Below, in pieces: positions 13,208 through 31,400 of a DNA stretch of 64,000 bases (within the stretch, counting starts at the first letter, position 1; each line of letters begins with the position of its first letter). This DNA is from Protonemura montana. Its lineage: Eukaryota; Arthropoda; Insecta; Plecoptera; Nemouridae. The notes below the pieces were generated by a model, which worked only from the letters and a program-made list of their open reading frames with translations, was not told the DNA's origin and searched no databases. Both the position numbers and the translations under genes were made by a program. Location of the stretch: assembly GCA_947568835.1 (NCBI GenBank), contig OX387605.1:21518418-21582417 (forward strand). The letters are read 5' to 3'.

Positions 13208-16200
13208 AAAACATTTGGAGGACAGACCTCGACTTCTTAGTCGTCCACCACGACCGCCTCGTGGTCCTCAGCTTCATGACGTCTTCCCCTACCACTGCTA
13301 ACTCCAGCATCCCGTTCTTACCAACACCGTTGCCGTTCCTGACGTCGTCTATTGACGTCGCCAACGGCTCGCTGACGACGGCTTCGACTCTGACCACGAC
13401 GCCGAACGCCTCGGGAACGCACCCGGAGGCGGCGCGTCTCAGCCTACCCAAACCTCTGCACGAAATGCTGGGCTCGGAGCTGGACAACACCGACTGGGGC
13501 CCGATATCGGCCGAGTTCCTCAACTATGCCCTGGCGTTGTTGGTGTACGCTGTGCGCTACCCTGCAGTCTTCTGGAACACAAACAAGGCGTTCGGGACGC
13601 TGTTCTCGTTCCAGTTGCTTGCCAACGGAGCCCAAAGCCTGCTTGCGTACGCCGGCATTTGCGTGCTTTATAAGGTGAGACTTTTTTCTGTGCTGCGCGT
13701 GCTCTTCATTGCTTGGTAGACTTGGAATCGGTTGGCGGCGTGATTGGAACGCACTAATCCGAAGCACTTTGATTTTCTTTGTAGGGGAATCGGAATTATC
13801 TTTAATCTGAAAAAAGAATCTGGCGCGTTTTCTGCTTTTCACAAGTATTTTTCAATTAATTTTGGACACGCGCCGTTGTATGCCTTACAGATAGGAGCAC
13901 TTTCATGGGAACACTGACGCTTTCTTCCAGAGTGAAAGAGTAGGGGGATTTTGGGGAAGTATACCGCGTGTCCGGGCTGTTAACGTCTTGTCAAGACCAG
14001 GCACGGTTGGAAGAGCTAAACCAGTTTAGAGTAGCATTCCATAAAATTCCTGGAATTCCCGGGGGAAATCACGGAAACTCACAAACATGGACATCGAGTC
14101 AGAACTCAACCTGGCTCGACCCCCGCCGATTGAAAGACAAACGCGTGGTCGTATAAAATGTGATCGCTCCAGGCAGTGGTGCAGTTTCGGCACCCCCCCC
14201 CCCCCCCCTCCCCCTTCGACGACGACGTCTGACACCACCCTCTCCCTCTTTTTTTGTAGGTGCAAGTCGTCGGCGTGTGGACGTCCCTGCCGCACCGCGT
14301 GACCAAGGGTATCATCGAGATGCCGTCTCCTTTCTTGTTAAACGCCCACATCACGCTCGCGCTCTTCGTGCTTTCCAACGTCCTCATACTCGCCTCCAGC
14401 CTCGTACTTTATCTCTACGGATATGGCAGGCAAGTACCGAACTACGCTGATCGAAAATATTTGGGTTGAAAGATAGGTTTTAGTGCCGGTTTTTTAATGG
14501 CACGTTAAGTGATTAACAGATCGTTAACAAACAAAAACATCTTCTTTATGATGGTTTTTAGACTCATGTCTACTTGATTTATCCTTAGCACTACTTTTAA
14601 GAAAAACAATTTCAAATGGGTTTTGAGGAAAACTAAATTTCCTTATTTTAGTTTCGGCGTGAGGAAATTTAGTTGTCCTTTACTTAGCATTCAAAACCAA
14701 TTTCAAATAGTTTTTCTTAAAAAACATCTTCTGATTGGTTGTTGCTTACCAAATAATAAATTAACAGACTGTTAAGTTCTAAATGGACCACTGGAAAACT
14801 GGCTCTGAATCATATTGAGTACTTGGATTTTGTTAAAATAAAATAATTAAGAAAATTTCTGTAGTGATCAAATTTACTTATGCTTTTGACTAAAAGGCAA
14901 AATCTGATTCTCTCGTGTGTTCAAAAGAGTAAAATGACAACTCAGCCTTTTGTGTATGGACACATATTTATCATCTTCTTACATTCAGTGTCTAGTAAAT
15001 CAGCATTTAAATTACGTCTTCCTTTTCTGCCAAGAACTTTATTCCAAATTTTCACAAAGAAAACTCACATCTCCATCCCTCAAAGCACTGCTAACCACCG
15101 CATCCCTCCACAGATTCAACGCGTTCCTGAACGCAGAGCGCGCTCGCCGCGTGATAATCTTGCGCGACGGCCGCGCTGGCGGCAGCTGGGGCTACTTCAC
15201 ACACTGCGCGGCACTGTGTGTCCTGCTATCCATCGCCGTGTGCAACGCACCGTTGCTCTATGACTGCACGATGCTTTACCGGCATAGTCTTGATGGGGCC
15301 ATTCTTGCATGCGTTGTCGGCGGTATCCTCCATCTCTTCCTATGGGTGCTGCTCTGGCTGGTGCTGACCATCAAGCGTCGCTGGGTGAGTTGGTTGTGCA
15401 AGACTCCGTGGAAATACAAGAAATAGTAACGACTAGGAGAATCTTAATCAGTTTTTGCAGGGTCAACAGAACACTTTAAATTCTACAATTCTTTATAACT
15501 TCCAATTATCTCCTCTGATGTCCATCATTTTCCATTTTCCTACTGCAGTAAGCTTTTTTTCTGCTATTTTCTTTTGTATTTTATCTGTTATTAACTTTTC
15601 TTGCCCGTTATGACAATCTTGGGAATAATTTTTTAAATCCAAAGAGTATTTTCAATTTCCCACCACTGAAATCATAACTGAAATTAGTTAGTAGCAATGC
15701 TGGGGGGGGGGGGGGGGAGGGGAGGGTCAATGCTTGGGCTGGAATAGACAGTGGCTAGACTGTACAAAGCTATTTTCCATAAAGGCTTGTCCTGTTCACT
15801 CCTTACTACGCCTTCCTTAAAATCGTTCATGAATCGATCATCTGGCTCTAAGTACTTGCTACTGACCACTAGTTCTGTAATGTTTGATCTGAGACATTAT
15901 TCCTAACAATCCCTTTGATTCCAGGTGTTCAAGCTGCGCGTGACAGTTGGGAGAGCGGCGGTGAGGTCAGCACGGTCAGTCAAGCTTGTGACGGAGGTGG
16001 ACTTGATTTCATCGTCTCGGATACGAGGGGACGAAAGCTCGGCGCCGCTGCTGGTTATCGGAAATGGTCGTACTTACACAGTTCACGACACGTCTCCCAA
16101 GAAGTCGATAATGAGCGTCATCCAGAAGGCTGCGTTGGACCGCAAAGCTCGAGCCGAGCAAGGTGAGAGTTTTTACTTAAAGTCAGAGATAGCAGAGATG

Positions 16201-25408: not shown

Positions 25409-25472
25409 CGGTAGGCGAGTGTTTCACCCAGACTAGTTTTCATTCGACATATTTAAAACGTGCGATTCTTCT

Positions 25473-25514
25473 CCCCCCCCCCCCCCCCCCCCCCCCCACC
25501 ACCACCACCACCAC
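25473..25514. repeat. Poly-C tract (25 C) followed by (CCA)n
   Basis: The longest homopolymer in the window, 25 C at 25473-25497, passes directly into about five CCA repeats. It lies between the hAT remnant and the third copy of the G/C-rich repeat. Confidence 0.95.
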
Positions 25515-25592: not shown

Positions 25593-25733
25593 GTATGCAT
25601 ATGTCGAAAGTTAAGGAATGGGGCATGGCTGATTGGACATTTCAATTGTATTTCCTTGCTATTTTTGGTTAGTTGAGAATTTTTATTGGTCAGCTAGTTG
25701 ATAACAATCTGTTTATTAATTTTATTCCGTATA

Positions 25734-25766
25734 TGAGGCGTATAGATGCAATGCCGGCAATCTCCA
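25734..25766 (+). repeat. Left terminal inverted repeat
   Basis: It starts TGAGGC, has TAGATGCAA at positions 10-18 and ends GGCAATCTCCA. It pairs with 28388-28420. Confidence 0.8.
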
Positions 25767-25890
25767 AAATATGACAAAATGAGTTAGATACTTCATTCGA
25801 TAGAGAATTGTTTTACCTAACAAGTTTTTAAAAGTTTATGTTGCAAAAACGGCATTCTCTGCTTCAATTAAATGAGAGAAGTTCAGAGTT

Positions 25891-25913
25891 GGATGCAAAA
25901 GCAGATTTCTCCA
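25891..25913 (+). repeat. Left subterminal repeat
   Basis: A 23-bp sequence from GGATGCAAAAG to ATTTCTCCA, identical and in the same orientation at 28200-28222. It resembles the inner part of the TIR (GATGCAA...CTCCA), as expected for a transposase-binding site. Confidence 0.75.
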
Positions 25914-26025
25914 GTGGTCTGTACTAAGCAAACCCGGCATTCTCCCTGCAACCAATCGCTGCACTCCGTTTAGTCACGTGATGGCGAACTTTGACAACCG
26001 GCTGATGAAGAGCTGATCTGGTTAA

Positions 26026-26201
26026 TCTGATTCATTTGACTGTTCTGTCGGTGTCGGCTGTATTTTCTTTAAAAATTATTTCAAGAGTTGTTTGTTTCAC
26101 AAATACGATGGATGTTTTGGTTTCACCTGTGATGGCAGTGTCGCTCGAAAGCGTAAACGGAACCCCACAAAGTGGAAAAGGGCCGAAGCTAAGAAACTAA
26201 G
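26026..26201 (+). other. Probable first exon of the transposon gene, without in-frame ATG
   Basis: After a TAA at 26023 the frame stays open to a donor at 26202 (AAG|GTTAAT). Its end encodes ARKRKRNPTKWKRAEAKKLR, a basic stretch of the kind found at the N-terminus of related arthropod proteins. Splicing to the AG at 26312-26313 rebuilds an AGA codon and reads on in frame into the long second exon. No ATG exists in this frame; the ATGs at 26108 and 26132 are in another frame, so the start may have been lost by mutation or lie in another exon. Confidence 0.55.
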
Positions 26202-26389
26202 GTTAATACAGATCTCTAGCCTATAATCTTAAACATAGTTATTTCGCTCTTTTTTAATTTCAACAGTCTTCACTTATTTCGGGCAATTATTATTGAAAAT
26301 TATTCCACAACAGATATACGGCAAAAGAACTTCCTGACTACCCATCCTGTGGGCACAGTACGAAGGCTTTTCGTTGTGCCTCGCTCACC

Positions 26390-28042
26390 ATGAGGGAAAT
26401 ACAAGATTTTCACAAGTGTTTCTACACATCTTTTGAGAAGATCACTCAAGACTCGTTTATTTTGAAGTTCTGCGAGGGAACGGCTCCATCTCGTCGGAGA
26501 CCTGGCAACGGTAGATACTCCGGTAAACAATGTCATACCAAGTACTTTGTAAAAAGTACAAGCTGTTGTGCAAGGGTGCCCGTGTGTATGAAAACTTTTA
26601 TCGGTGTGTTAGGAATAACAAAGCATCGTGTACAGCACGTAGTGAAGAATCACCTTGCCACTGGCTTGATTCCGAAAGAAACTAGAGGAGGAGACCATAC
26701 CAGTGCCAAATACCACACACGGAAGGTGGCAGTAATGGGCTTCATTAATAAATTCCGATGCATTGAATCCCATTACTGCCGTGGTAAAACTTCTTGCCGA
26801 ATGTATTTGGCATCAGAGCTGAGCATTAATAAAATGCATCGACTCTACAACGAGCAAGCACCTCAGTTGCTGAAAGTGAAGCAAGGGTATTTCAGATCAA
26901 TTTTCAATGAACATTATAATCTCGGATTTAAAAGCCCACGTACTGATGTTTGCTCTACTTGTACTGGTTTGCTAGAGAGAATTTCCAAAGCCAAGGACAT
27001 TATTGAAAAACAAGCCCTTCAAACAGAGAAACGCGTCCATTCGCTGCGGGCCAAAGCATTTTTTGACATGCTAAAGGAAGAAAGACCAGGGCTGGTTACA
27101 ATGTCATTTGACTGCCAGAAAAACCAAGTTTTGCCGAAGGTTCCCGATCAAGCGGCGTACTACTCTCGGCAGCTCTACATGTATAATTTCACAATCGTAG
27201 AAGGCAGCTCAAAAAGCAAGTTGACAAGGGAGAATGTCCATACATATTACTGGACGGAGGACTCCAGAAACAAAGGCTCGAATGAAATAGCGTCTGCAGT
27301 TTACCATCGACTTAGTAACGTGAACCTGGGTGGAATAGATACTGTTCGTCTGGTGGCTGATGGCTGTGGAGGCCAGAACAAAAATACCACAATGGTTGGT
27401 ATGTGCATGAAGTGGATGAAGACTGCACCACAAAATGTAAAGAAATTAGAAATCATTTTCCCAGTGGCAGGGCACTCCTTTATCCCACCGGATCGTGTCT
27501 TTGGGAACATCGAAAAAGAGCTGAAAAAAATGGAAGTTATCTGCGAGCCAGCAGAATATGTTAAAGTATTCTCCAACCACGGCATTGTAATAAACCTAGG
27601 GTCACCAGAATGTGAGGTGTGTGACTGGAAGTCGCAAATACAAGAAAATCTGAAGCCCCCCGGATCATGGCACTTTAAATTTAAACCATGCAAGCGTTTT
27701 ATTATCACAAAACGAGTGAATGGAAACGTTGTCCTAAGAGGAGAACCGCATTATCGGAGTGATGTTGGGAGTCCGAGAAGCGTTTTTAAACAAGGAAAAC
27801 AAGTTTGTGGAATAGATCCGAAAGTTCTTCCCCTTGGAATAGTTGTGAAGCCTCTCAAGTTAAGAGACGTTCGGAACCTACTTCTGAAACATTTCGGGGA
27901 AAATTGGCAAGAATTGGACCACCTTGCATATTATGCAAACCTAATGCCAAACGACGCCAACGACGACGCTCCAGAAGACGCCGTAGAAGACGACGACCTG
28001 CTATGCGAACCACATGAAGAAGTTGACGATTTGGTGGTCTAG
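26390..28042 (+). CDS. Transposase-like protein (DUF7869-like), 550 codons from first ATG
   Basis: The protein probably catalyses movement of the surrounding TIR element. The ATG at 26390 is the first in frame; the exon itself is open from 26314, adding 25 residues (with a Cys-Gly-His motif) joined to the exon at 26026-26201. Visible parts in ATG numbering: a Cys-rich and helical DNA-binding-like segment (VCMKTFIGVLGITKHRVQHV, 65-84), CSTC at 188-191, then an RNase H-like core with SFD (D241), VADGCGGQNKN (D324) and GHSFIPPDRVFGNIEKEL, where D368 and E375 are candidate third acidic residues. CEVC lies at 408-411 and an acidic tail at 521-547. The same order occurs in a large group of uncharacterised insect proteins carrying the DUF7869 domain, which I recall without a search. 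Transposase function is inferred from the TIRs and the D-D-E/D layout. Confidence 0.7.
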   Translation: MREIQDFHKCFYTSFEKITQDSFILKFCEGTAPSRRRPGNGRYSGKQCHTKYFVKSTSCCARVPVCMKTFIGVLGITKHRVQHVVKNHLATGLIPKETRGGDHTSAKYHTRKVAVMGFINKFRCIESHYCRGKTSCRMYLASELSINKMHRLYNEQAPQLLKVKQGYFRSIFNEHYNLGFKSPRTDVCSTCTGLLERISKAKDIIEKQALQTEKRVHSLRAKAFFDMLKEERPGLVTMSFDCQKNQVLPKVPDQAAYYSRQLYMYNFTIVEGSSKSKLTRENVHTYYWTEDSRNKGSNEIASAVYHRLSNVNLGGIDTVRLVADGCGGQNKNTTMVGMCMKWMKTAPQNVKKLEIIFPVAGHSFIPPDRVFGNIEKELKKMEVICEPAEYVKVFSNHGIVINLGSPECEVCDWKSQIQENLKPPGSWHFKFKPCKRFIITKRVNGNVVLRGEPHYRSDVGSPRSVFKQGKQVCGIDPKVLPLGIVVKPLKLRDVRNLLLKHFGENWQELDHLAYYANLMPNDANDDAPEDAVEDDDLLCEPHEEVDDLVV

Positions 28043-28078
28043 GACCCTGGGCCCAGGAAAGTTTTTTTTTTTGTTGAA

Positions 28079-28084
28079 AATAAA
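28079..28084 (+). terminator. Poly(A) signal of the transposon gene
   Basis: AATAAA 37 bases after the stop codon, followed by A-rich sequence, still inside the element. Confidence 0.5.
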
Positions 28085-28199
28085 ACAACAAAAAAAACAA
28101 CAAAAATAAAATAAAATAAGCGGGATCCATGGCGTCTTTTTATATCCACATCCCATCCCCAACATTTTTTCCGTAGCAAAACCAGAATTCTCCAAAATG

Positions 28200-28222
28200 G
28201 GATGCAAAAGCAGATTTCTCCA
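28200..28222 (+). repeat. Right subterminal repeat
   Basis: Identical over 23 bp to 25891-25913 and in direct orientation, 166 bp inside the right TIR. Confidence 0.75.
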
Positions 28223-28387
28223 AGTTTACATGTTACTTTTGTCCGTATCATAGGAATAACACTTTCTTAGGTCGCAAATTTTATAATTAGGATGTGTGCC
28301 CCATTCACATTGCAACTTCATTGTTGGTGAGAATATTACGATTAAATCAGAAACATTGTTTTGTGATTTCCTCAAGAACAAGAAAAA

Positions 28388-28420
28388 TGGAGATTGCCAG
28401 TTTTGCATCTAGGGGCCTCA
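28388..28420 (-). repeat. Right terminal inverted repeat
   Basis: The reverse complement of the left TIR at 27 of 33 positions; the outermost TGAGGC is identical. Confidence 0.8.
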
Positions 28421-31400
28421 TATATCCGGCAATTTTTATTGTTTTTATAATCATTAGTTAGCTTCAAACTAATAATTCGGCACAAATAGCCTAGTAGCTG
28501 ACGTGCCGCTAAAACCTACAATAATAATAATAATTAGTGAAAAATATTGCTTACGTTATATTTTCATCAAACAGGACAATTCAAAACATCTTCAGCTTGA
28601 AACGTCAATATAGTAGACAGAATATTTCAAGCATAACTTTTCCTTTTTGCTTACTTACCTATCGCTGGTGTTTTATACTTATCTAGGACGCAAAGGCAGT
28701 TAGGTTCACGGAGCTTGAAAATCGGACCCCGTTTCGACTGTTCAAACAATCTGACAAAACTTCAGCACTACTAGCGACCTCTACTCTGGCTCACTTTTCT
28801 TCTTAACTACGTAGCTATATTGTTAGCTACTAGGTGGCGTTCAAAGCATTTTAATACATTTTAGTTGGTCTTTTAGCTACTAGATGACGTACAATGTGTT
28901 ATATTTTTAAACTGTTTTACGAAGGGTTCAATCGCTTGTCAAATAGATAACATGATGACAATAATTTTGAATATGAGATAGTAAAAAAAATCTGCACAAT
29001 TTTTAAGGTCCCTCAACCATAGCCCTTGTTGCCTCGACAAATTGAGTAGCAATCCAGTATCTTTAAATGCGATTAAATTAGATGATGTCCTTCGTAAATT
29101 TGTTTGTGAAACCATCATCACACCTATACTTATTTTTTTCTATACTCCAAACAATGGGCCATAGATATTTTTAAAAAATCTTTACATATGGGGTGATAAA
29201 GTATTCAAGTCTTTTGCTTCTCAACTCCCAGACCCGGCACCTCCATCGATGAGTTATTCAGGGTCTTCTTTCAGGAAAAGTTGGTTTTTTTAGGTTTTTG
29301 GAAAAAATTGGGACCATAGGTGACCAAGATATCGAGTCAAGGAGAAAATAGACAAGTGTAATACGCGTACATGTAATACGGTAATAAGTACCAGTAATCG
29401 CAATAGCACTAGAAGGTGTCAACCTCAGCGAAGTAAAAATGTATCGTTATTACTGATTACATTTGCGATGGTGATTTTTTACGAGTACCTTATCAATAAT
29501 AAATAAAATAATAAGTTGAAAAGAATCATTCTTAGCGCAAGGCCAAGTAAAACGATGTTCTCTTTATTTTTTAGAGGCAAAAGAGAGAAACAAACTTGAA
29601 GCTCTCCCCATGTTTTTCTTTTGGAAATTGAAGAGATTTATGCATTGCTTTTTTCAAGTACATTCCGCATGTGTTTCGCCAAGTTCGGCTTGGACTATGT
29701 CCATCCGTTTCCCACAAAACACAAACCATTAACAACCGTCACAGTACATATTCAGATTTCACCAACAGCATTGTTTTTCAATACTTGCCACCACTAGTGA
29801 AACTCGAGAGTAGAAATTAATATTGAAAAATGATAAATGCCATTCGCGAGAGAAGCATGCTTTGGCCAGTTTAATTGTTTCTAGAGCGACAGTTTTTTGT
29901 TTGTTATGATCGCAGGACGGCAATAATTGTCTCGATCCACTCGACGTGTCCTCGCGGCAGCTTGGACAACGGCGCTTGTTTGGCGACCCCAGAACCACGT
30001 CACGGGGAGCAGGAAACACCATTAATTACCTAAAAAGCAATTCAGTCAAGTTGAAAAATATGCACCGCGTCTATTCTACAAACAAGAGGAATTATTGTTG
30101 TAATGAAATTTCAAGCTGTTGTGATTTCATTTGATAAAGCGTGCGTTGCGGGCAGAATCAAACGTTGCTTATTGTGGCAGGTAGCGGCATGTCATGCTTT
30201 TGGGTCTGCGTTCATGTTGCATGGGGCAGTGGGGATGATTGATATTACATAGTACGTCGAGTGGAGGTATGTCGCCTTTCACACCAATTGGACACTGCTT
30301 AGATTTGCCAAAATCGTGGCATTTATTAGTGTTTACTGCGTACAAAAACGAATGGGAGTCGGATATTTCCGTTGTATTTAGATGGACGCTTTTTAGAATT
30401 CAATCGTTTTTCGGGTGACGAAAGCAGTACATCAAAAAGCATGTGTTTTACAGTTTTTTGAGAGAAAGTTTTCGGTTCTTAAAAGAACACGGTTCGTTTC
30501 GTGTAAGTAATAGAATGGGAGTTGGCCATGGAGGTGTTTATACCATATAGCAAACAAAATTCAATATACAAGCATAACTTTTTCTGTGCTTTTTATTACT
30601 CTGTCCAGCGTTTGACTCGGAGATTACGAAGTGCATGCAGTATTCGTTTTAATTGCTATGCTAAAAGTATCTTGAACCATCTCCGCAACAAGGATATTTA
30701 ATTAAATTTATGGCTTGAAACTGAATTGTTCCGCCTGTAGATTACCAACACGATCATTATAATGCAACTGCAAGCGAGCCGAGTCAAATAGACTGAACTC
30801 TAATTGATTGTGGCATTCGGTTTAAAGTAATTGATCAATTAACACACCAATCGGTGTCTGCTAGGTTAACGTGCGGTCTGGCGTTTGACTTGTTCTTACA
30901 GCAGCATATCTCTACGTATACTATAGTTATTTATTTTATGGGTTTCATAAAAATAAATATTTTCTGGTCAAGAATTTTGCAAAGTGTGACAAGATATGAA
31001 CAGTTCTTAGACATTCTAAGCATTCCTATTGGAAACCAATACTCAATATGAACAGTGAATTATGTAACATATTTCCAAATATAGAATGGACTATGGTTGA
31101 ATATACCCAATAAAAGATCTGCGATGTCAACAGAGCTCACCCAATAAACTAGAAACTATATTTGATAGTTTAACCCACTGCATTGGTCTGCATTGGTTTT
31201 GAGACGAACGAGACTGCCCAATTGCAAAACTGGTCGCTCTCGAAGCACAAACAAATCTCTCTCCCTTGTCGTAAGACGAGGTTAAGAGATAGGTACTGAC
31301 TAGGTAAAGTAAATTCGAGTTAAAGTACTTAGTAACCGCTACTTGCACGTGCTGACTCGCATTTTGTACTTTGGTAATTTATGAGAACTTGGTAAAACTG

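Follow-up and report, generated by a model that had tools for sequence, protein, structure and literature searches.

Is the inverted-repeat structure around a 550-codon frame in the genome of Protonemura montana (Plecoptera) a DNA transposon, is the frame's DUF7869-like protein its transposase, and does the element belong to a named superfamily? The locus lies in a stretch of 64,000 nucleotides, hereafter the window (assembly GCA_947568835.1, contig OX387605.1, positions 21,518,418 to 21,582,417). A preliminary description had reported the frame and, around it, 33-bp inverted repeats with 27 of 33 matches. Both are present: the frame spans 26390-28042, and the top inverted repeat listed for the region has arms at 25730-25766 and 28388-28424 with 31/37 matches, which gives 27/33 once the flanking TATA is left out. 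The protein matches the Pfam profile of DUF7869 with 28.2 bits (cut-off 26). The inverted-repeat element around the frame is real. We estimate at roughly 0.87 the probability that it is a class II cut-and-paste DNA transposon whose own DUF7869 protein is its DDD/E transposase. It would form a new family of transposons with terminal inverted repeats (TIRs), Sola-like in its mode of insertion.

The ends of the element follow from its copies. A second full copy, 99.5% identical, lies on another contig (C13:885335-888029) and is flanked by AAAT on both sides. A third copy (L017) is represented by its 5' part at C1:18671464-18673574, with ATAT at the left; beyond element base 2107 its 3' end is replaced by other sequence. 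This replacing sequence, about 2.1 kb into the element, looks partly coding. ATAT is self-complementary, so the window copy alone could not place the boundary, which the AAAT of the C13 copy does: lacking self-complementarity, AAAT falls outside the inverted repeat, so that the duplication measures 4 bp and the earlier boundary was off by one. The window element thus ends in GAGGC...GCCTC, with 32-bp TIRs:
25735..28419, forward strand: whole transposon, 2685 bp, ends by comparison with the full C13 copy and, on the 5' side, the C1 copy
25735..25766, forward strand: 5' TIR, 32 bp, 26/32 matching the 3' TIR (the top inverted repeat minus five flanking bases)
28388..28419, reverse strand: 3' TIR, from the top inverted repeat of the region
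25731..25734, no strand: left copy of the target-site duplication, ATAT, by copy comparison (AAAT on both sides in the C13 copy)
28420..28423, no strand: right copy of the target-site duplication, ATAT, by copy comparison

The outer TGAGGC of the preliminary description is therefore correct for GAGGC, the element end, but its T belongs to the target duplication, and the TATA or TA duplications proposed there give way to 4-bp ATAT in the window and AAAT in the C13 copy. With up to three mismatches, the 32-base pattern of the 5' TIR has one match in the window, against none in any of 100 shuffles. Genome-wide (258-Mb assembly, three mismatches allowed) a TIR pattern occurs at five places, which are the five intact ends of the three copies, and a reversed control pattern has no match in the whole genome. 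The TIR search suggested earlier as a check thus shows that the TIR pair is not unique. Of the two further copies, the C13 copy has both ends, the C1 copy only the 5' one. The idea that an inverted repeat surrounds a host gene by coincidence, to which we give practically no credence, is ruled out by these dispersed copies, which are nearly identical and share their ends but differ in their duplications. The tie between the protein and a defined mobile element, a TIR element with further copies and target duplications, is borne out.

The gene seems to extend upstream of the frame:
26108..26201, forward strand: predicted exon 1, with a basic N-terminus (RKRKRN..W..KKLR), frame-shifted relative to the C13 and C1 copies
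26202..26313, forward strand: predicted GT-AG intron, 112 bp, phase-compatible, with a different third base in the window copy
26314..28042, forward strand: predicted exon 2, holding the ATG frame 26390-28042 (550 codons)

In the C13 and C1 copies, exon 1 reads as a basic N-terminus and joins the frame in phase over the intron, and several relatives with long frames begin with a similar basic stretch, RKRK...W...KK.R. Relative to both copies, the window copy carries a one-base deletion in predicted exon 1 and a different third intron base. The gene is hence probably longer than 550 codons, and the window copy may fail to yield the complete protein; there are copies that lack the deletion and the intron change. 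The term self-contained, used in the preliminary description, does not suit the window copy. A selection test on the frame gave no signal either way in the pairs compared: the window and C13 frames differ in five codons (three synonymous, two nonsynonymous), and the three pairs among L021-L023 in one to three positions each, all nonsynonymous.

Relatives of the protein are numerous in the same genome, with at least 39 protein matches in a six-frame search. Our analysis covered 23 loci (the window, L010, L017-L036, and L040), with nine further regions left out. Both TIRs were found at 12 of the 23 loci, and these fall into seven types:
GAGGC: window element, L010
GGACCCCTCAG: L021, L023, L024, L032
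CGTCACCTTAG: L028, L029
CGTCGGCTGAG: L030
CGTCGCATTGG: L027
GAAGGGTCC: L035
CGATACCC: L036

The TIRs of L027 and L030 resemble each other; the other types have no obvious likeness. The protein family is associated with all seven. The ends of the L021 type were set by aligning its copies, and those of L028, L029, L030, L035, and L036 were first found by a search requiring an equal 4-mer on both sides. A search without this condition, which covered neither L029 nor L030, returned the same TIRs for L021, L028, L035, and L036 and also found L027. Identical 4-bp flanks are present in 10 of the 12 elements with two TIRs, and identical 5-bp flanks in none. The duplications are ATAT (four times), AAAT (twice), ACAT, ATTT, ATAA, and AATT. 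Half of them (AAAT twice, ACAT, ATTT, and ATAA) are not self-complementary and so do not represent an extended TIR. When left and right flanks of different elements are paired, 16 of 132 pairings agree, and none of 20,000 permutations reaches 10/12. The AATT of L035 might be element sequence instead of a duplication, because the related copy L020 has AATT there too.

One of the families appears to have moved recently. The L021-type TIR has nine matches in the genome, all at ends of that family's five copies; L021-L024 are pairwise 99.8-99.9% alike, which points to recent movement, and L032 is 99.4-99.9% alike in pieces. The L021-type copy L032 (C3:21440500-21450400) shares a contig with the window element, from which it is about 96 kb away; an insertion of about 1.07 kb in its interior brings its length to 3914 bp. 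A further lineage is represented by L040 (C11:18538800-18543200), with an open frame of 587 residues and no TIRs with equal 4-mers within its 4.4 kb; it may belong to a longer element or have settled as a host gene.

Three insertions, none of them in the family of the window element, have uninterrupted copies of their target in the genome: L028, L029, and L024. The L029 insertion site is the left TIR of an L030-type element, and its joined flanks match L030 and L033 unbroken, at 97%, with ATTT present once; only about 25 bases of the L029 left flank are homologous at this site. Locus L029 (C16:27322200-27332100) is thus a CGTCACCTTAG-type element inside the left TIR of a CGTCGGCTGAG-type one, both with this protein family. 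The joined flanks of L028 match L033 at 89% over 193 columns, with ATAT once and a 17-base gap away from the junction. Those of L024 have 29 matches that run through the junction, at 88-99% (40 of 94 candidates scored); the same search found no uninterrupted site for the window insertion or for L021. The L024 insertion (C11:18276379-18279219) lies in a repeat, and by coordinates about 24 of the 29 matches are no more than roughly 1 Mb from the end of a contig, as would be expected of a subterminal repeat. For the C13 insertion, three other places carry the right flank with AAAT adjoining, and the left flank has only about eight homologous bases (7/8), at best half an empty site.

The residues that a DDD/E transposase would need can be placed on the protein, and the four acidic positions named in the preliminary description are where it had put them:
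27233..27550, forward strand: DUF7869 match (PF25273), residues 282-387, by Pfam
27110..27112, forward strand: D241, invariant in the alignment, candidate first catalytic Asp
27359..27361, forward strand: D324 in D-G-C-G-G-Q-N-K-N, candidate second catalytic Asp by the alignment
27491..27493, forward strand: D368 in G-H-S-F-I-P-P-D, invariant in the alignment, candidate third catalytic Asp
27512..27514, forward strand: E375, acidic in 11/11 aligned proteins (10 E, 1 D), alternative third residue

In an alignment of 11 proteins (A5: the 12-row alignment A1 without the fragments L031 and L034, and with L040), D241, E290, D324, and D368 are invariant, as are W288, H217, C191, C326, Q329, N330, N332, G361, H362, and others. 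Over all 12 rows of A1, D241 is the only invariant member of the triad; D324 and D368 are conserved at 90% or more and fall short of invariance because L031 ends before both. L034 carries D at the position of E375. The spacings are 83 residues from D241 to D324 and 44 from D324 to D368, which is within the range of DDE/D cores that lack an insertion domain.

A low-confidence model from the single sequence orders the core as strands 235-241, 266-272, and 283-287, helix 297-309, strand 318-323, helix 329-345, strand 352-358, and helix 367-380, an order like that of the RNase H core. D241 ends a strand in this model, D324 lies just past another, and D368 and E375 are in the helix after the last. 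Secondary structure from alignment propensities, which is rough and weak evidence, agrees roughly with this order. Two relatives have RNase_H matches below the threshold (E 0.001 and 0.02; 19.7 and 15.5 bits, cut-off 25.8). The core may have an RNase H fold.

At the family level, 10 of the 12 A1 members match DUF7869 at E<=0.1, and the PF25273 profile has 15 matches in the species' own genome and none in 14 control genomes. No relatives appeared in viruses, phages, plasmids, and prokaryote genomes, in which the pattern scans would pick up only close relatives and from which the own or a very near genome was perhaps excluded. Against the PDB sequences, the single protein had two insignificant matches (E 0.23 and 1.1) while the profile had none up to E 10, and neither NCBIfam (window protein) nor PHROGs (11 members) gave a match.

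Inward of the TIRs, the element carries repeats of the inner TIR motif, which may serve as transposase-binding sites:
25842..25860, forward strand: subterminal repeat of the inner TIR motif (TGCAAAAACGGCATTCTC-like), perhaps bound by the transposase
25894..25912, forward strand: subterminal motif copy
25927..25945, forward strand: subterminal motif copy
28175..28193, forward strand: subterminal motif copy
28203..28221, forward strand: subterminal motif copy

The 23-bp stretch 25891-25913 is identical to 28200-28222. A gapped form of the inner TIR motif occurs 13 times in the 64-kb window; shuffles average 3.5 matches and 0/100 reach 13, in a test that is partly circular since the motif was derived from the element itself. 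Seven of the 13 matches are inside the element, two of them in the TIRs. Across the family, the inner TIR 14-mer recurs subterminally above the highest of 100 shuffles in six of the seven TIR types (8 against at most 1 in L028). Subterminal arrays of this kind are common as transposase-binding sites.

These features can be combined into a mechanism with proposed roles of the protein in DNA binding and catalysis. The basic and Cys-rich N-terminal part, and perhaps also a C188-C191-H217 finger, would bind the TIRs and the subterminal motifs. The core, with D241, D324, and D368 (or E375 as the alternative), would cut at GAGGC/GCCTC. The cut ends would then be joined to an AT-rich target with a 4-bp stagger, the repair of which would leave the 4-bp duplication. 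Alternatively, the DUF7869 protein could be a passenger or a domesticated gene in an element that another transposase mobilizes. Passengers captured in this way are known, for example Fanzor in Sola2 (PMC3627910), and the transposase role is here a proposal. Yet, once this gene and its broken parts are set aside by position, the 12 elements yielded no ATG frame longer than 118 residues, and proteins of this one family accompany seven TIR types, no two of which look alike except those of L027 and L030. We regard a passenger as improbable.

Several observations weigh against the transposon and its DUF7869 transposase as proposed. The models are poor: mean predicted local distance difference test (pLDDT) scores are 35.9 and 60.6, the latter for the core-only model, with a predicted template modeling (pTM) score of 0.57. 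There are also short extra elements (strand 246-248, helix 290-294), and the core-only model has a longer additional strand at about 246-252. Foldseek searches of these weak models against PDB and BFVD gave 268, 316, and 279 matches at E<=10 and none at E<=0.001; UvrC, RuvC, and a RuvC-like viral protein are among them at E 1.9, 3.4, and 1.6, which is not significant. The RNase_H match of L036 spans residues 494-561 against profile positions 3-67, with the D324 equivalent at 500. As this is the start of the profile, D324 seems paired with the first RNase H aspartate, in conflict with the assumed order of the aspartates, a pairing read from match coordinates and not from an alignment. Pfam support within A1 is uneven, with six of the 12 members above the DUF7869 cut-off, four below it, and no match for L021 and L031; the L021 type, which makes up four of the 12 elements, belongs to the family by BLAST only (E 1e-33 to 1e-35). 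One or both ends are lacking at 11 loci (L017-L020, L022, L025, L026, L031, L033, L034, and L040) through truncation, decay, or the short DNA stretch examined. L023 and L027 have no matching duplication and, as L029 and L030 were found via the equal-4-mer search, the unbiased count is 8/10. The window element's own family yielded no full uninterrupted site, and in the 14-mer test the window element, with one copy, is not above its shuffles (maximum 2).

With its ends and target duplications defined and its catalytic residues proposed, an uncharacterized protein family now ranks as a probable transposase, and genes so far called uncharacterized can be recognized as mobile DNA. The near-identical L021-type copies make an excision and integration assay practical.

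Two features of the surroundings may be recorded. Upstream of the element, at 25472-25513, a C run precedes (CAC)n. At 13261-15426 on the forward strand, two frames have several transmembrane-like stretches, reminiscent of the insect tincar protein.

How does the element compare with known systems? Like piggyBac and Kolobok, it has a 4-bp duplication and, as proposed, a DDD/E transposase. These two superfamilies insert at TTAA, which is found in none of the 10 duplications here. Ginger, Chapaev, and Academ share duplications of 3 to 5 bp; Pfam scans of members gave no integrase, EnSpm-type, or other named transposase domain, and no match to the Gypsy-type integrase core of Ginger. The resemblance to Tc1/mariner lies in the small single-gene element with short TIRs and, as proposed here, a DDD/E transposase. 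Tc1/mariner always duplicates TA (PMC10741241). There is no TA duplication here, and the scanned members have no Pfam match to Tc1/mariner domains.

Could the DUF7869 transposons then be a superfamily of their own, unnamed in Repbase? Pfam lists DUF7869 as a domain of unknown function, and we know of no superfamily with this protein. The word DUF7869 was absent from the literature searched, and no paper was found for five spellings of the Q-N-K/R-N motif, although these negatives come from a partial collection; nor do the available parts of PMC3627910 and PMC10294476 describe the motif. Against a separate superfamily stands the insertion behavior, which is as in Sola. We therefore advance only tentatively, as the less favored solution, that these transposons stand apart. 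With the same reserve, DUF7869 might be the catalytic core of an unnamed eukaryotic DDD superfamily that makes 4-bp AT-rich duplications, has a Cys/His finger ahead of the first Asp and subterminal repeats derived from its TIRs, and comprises several lineages with different TIRs in one genome, at least one of them recently active.

We lean slightly towards the other solution, in which these elements are a new family within Sola (Sola1, Sola2, or Sola3, most likely Sola2) and DUF7869 is part of the Sola DDD transposase. Sola elements have a DDD transposase, 4-bp duplications, a length mostly of 2-9 kb, and TIRs of 11-1124 bp (PMC10741241), and the duplications fit the elements described here. 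Sola has been grouped in one clade with RNases H1 (PMC3985635), and two relatives have weak RNase_H matches. Amoebozoan Sola2 makes AT-rich 4-bp duplications of the form AWWT, e.g., ATAT, AAAT, and ATTT (PMC3627910), and eight of the 10 duplications here conform to it. On the other hand, ACAT and ATAA are outside AWWT, the one Sola2 transposase length printed in PMC3627910, 888 aa, exceeds the frames here (at most 721 residues from stop to stop), and the likeness to Sola is one of insertion mode. No superfamily known to the preliminary description has these ends. Among the named ones, Sola makes 4-bp duplications, so that novelty at the superfamily level is unproven. The elements differ from Sola2 in two of 10 duplications and in a protein known only as DUF7869. 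They share with it a TIR element of a few kb, 4-bp and mostly AT-rich duplications, and acidic residues of the DDD type, and by insertion mode the closest named group is Sola, in a Sola2-like form.

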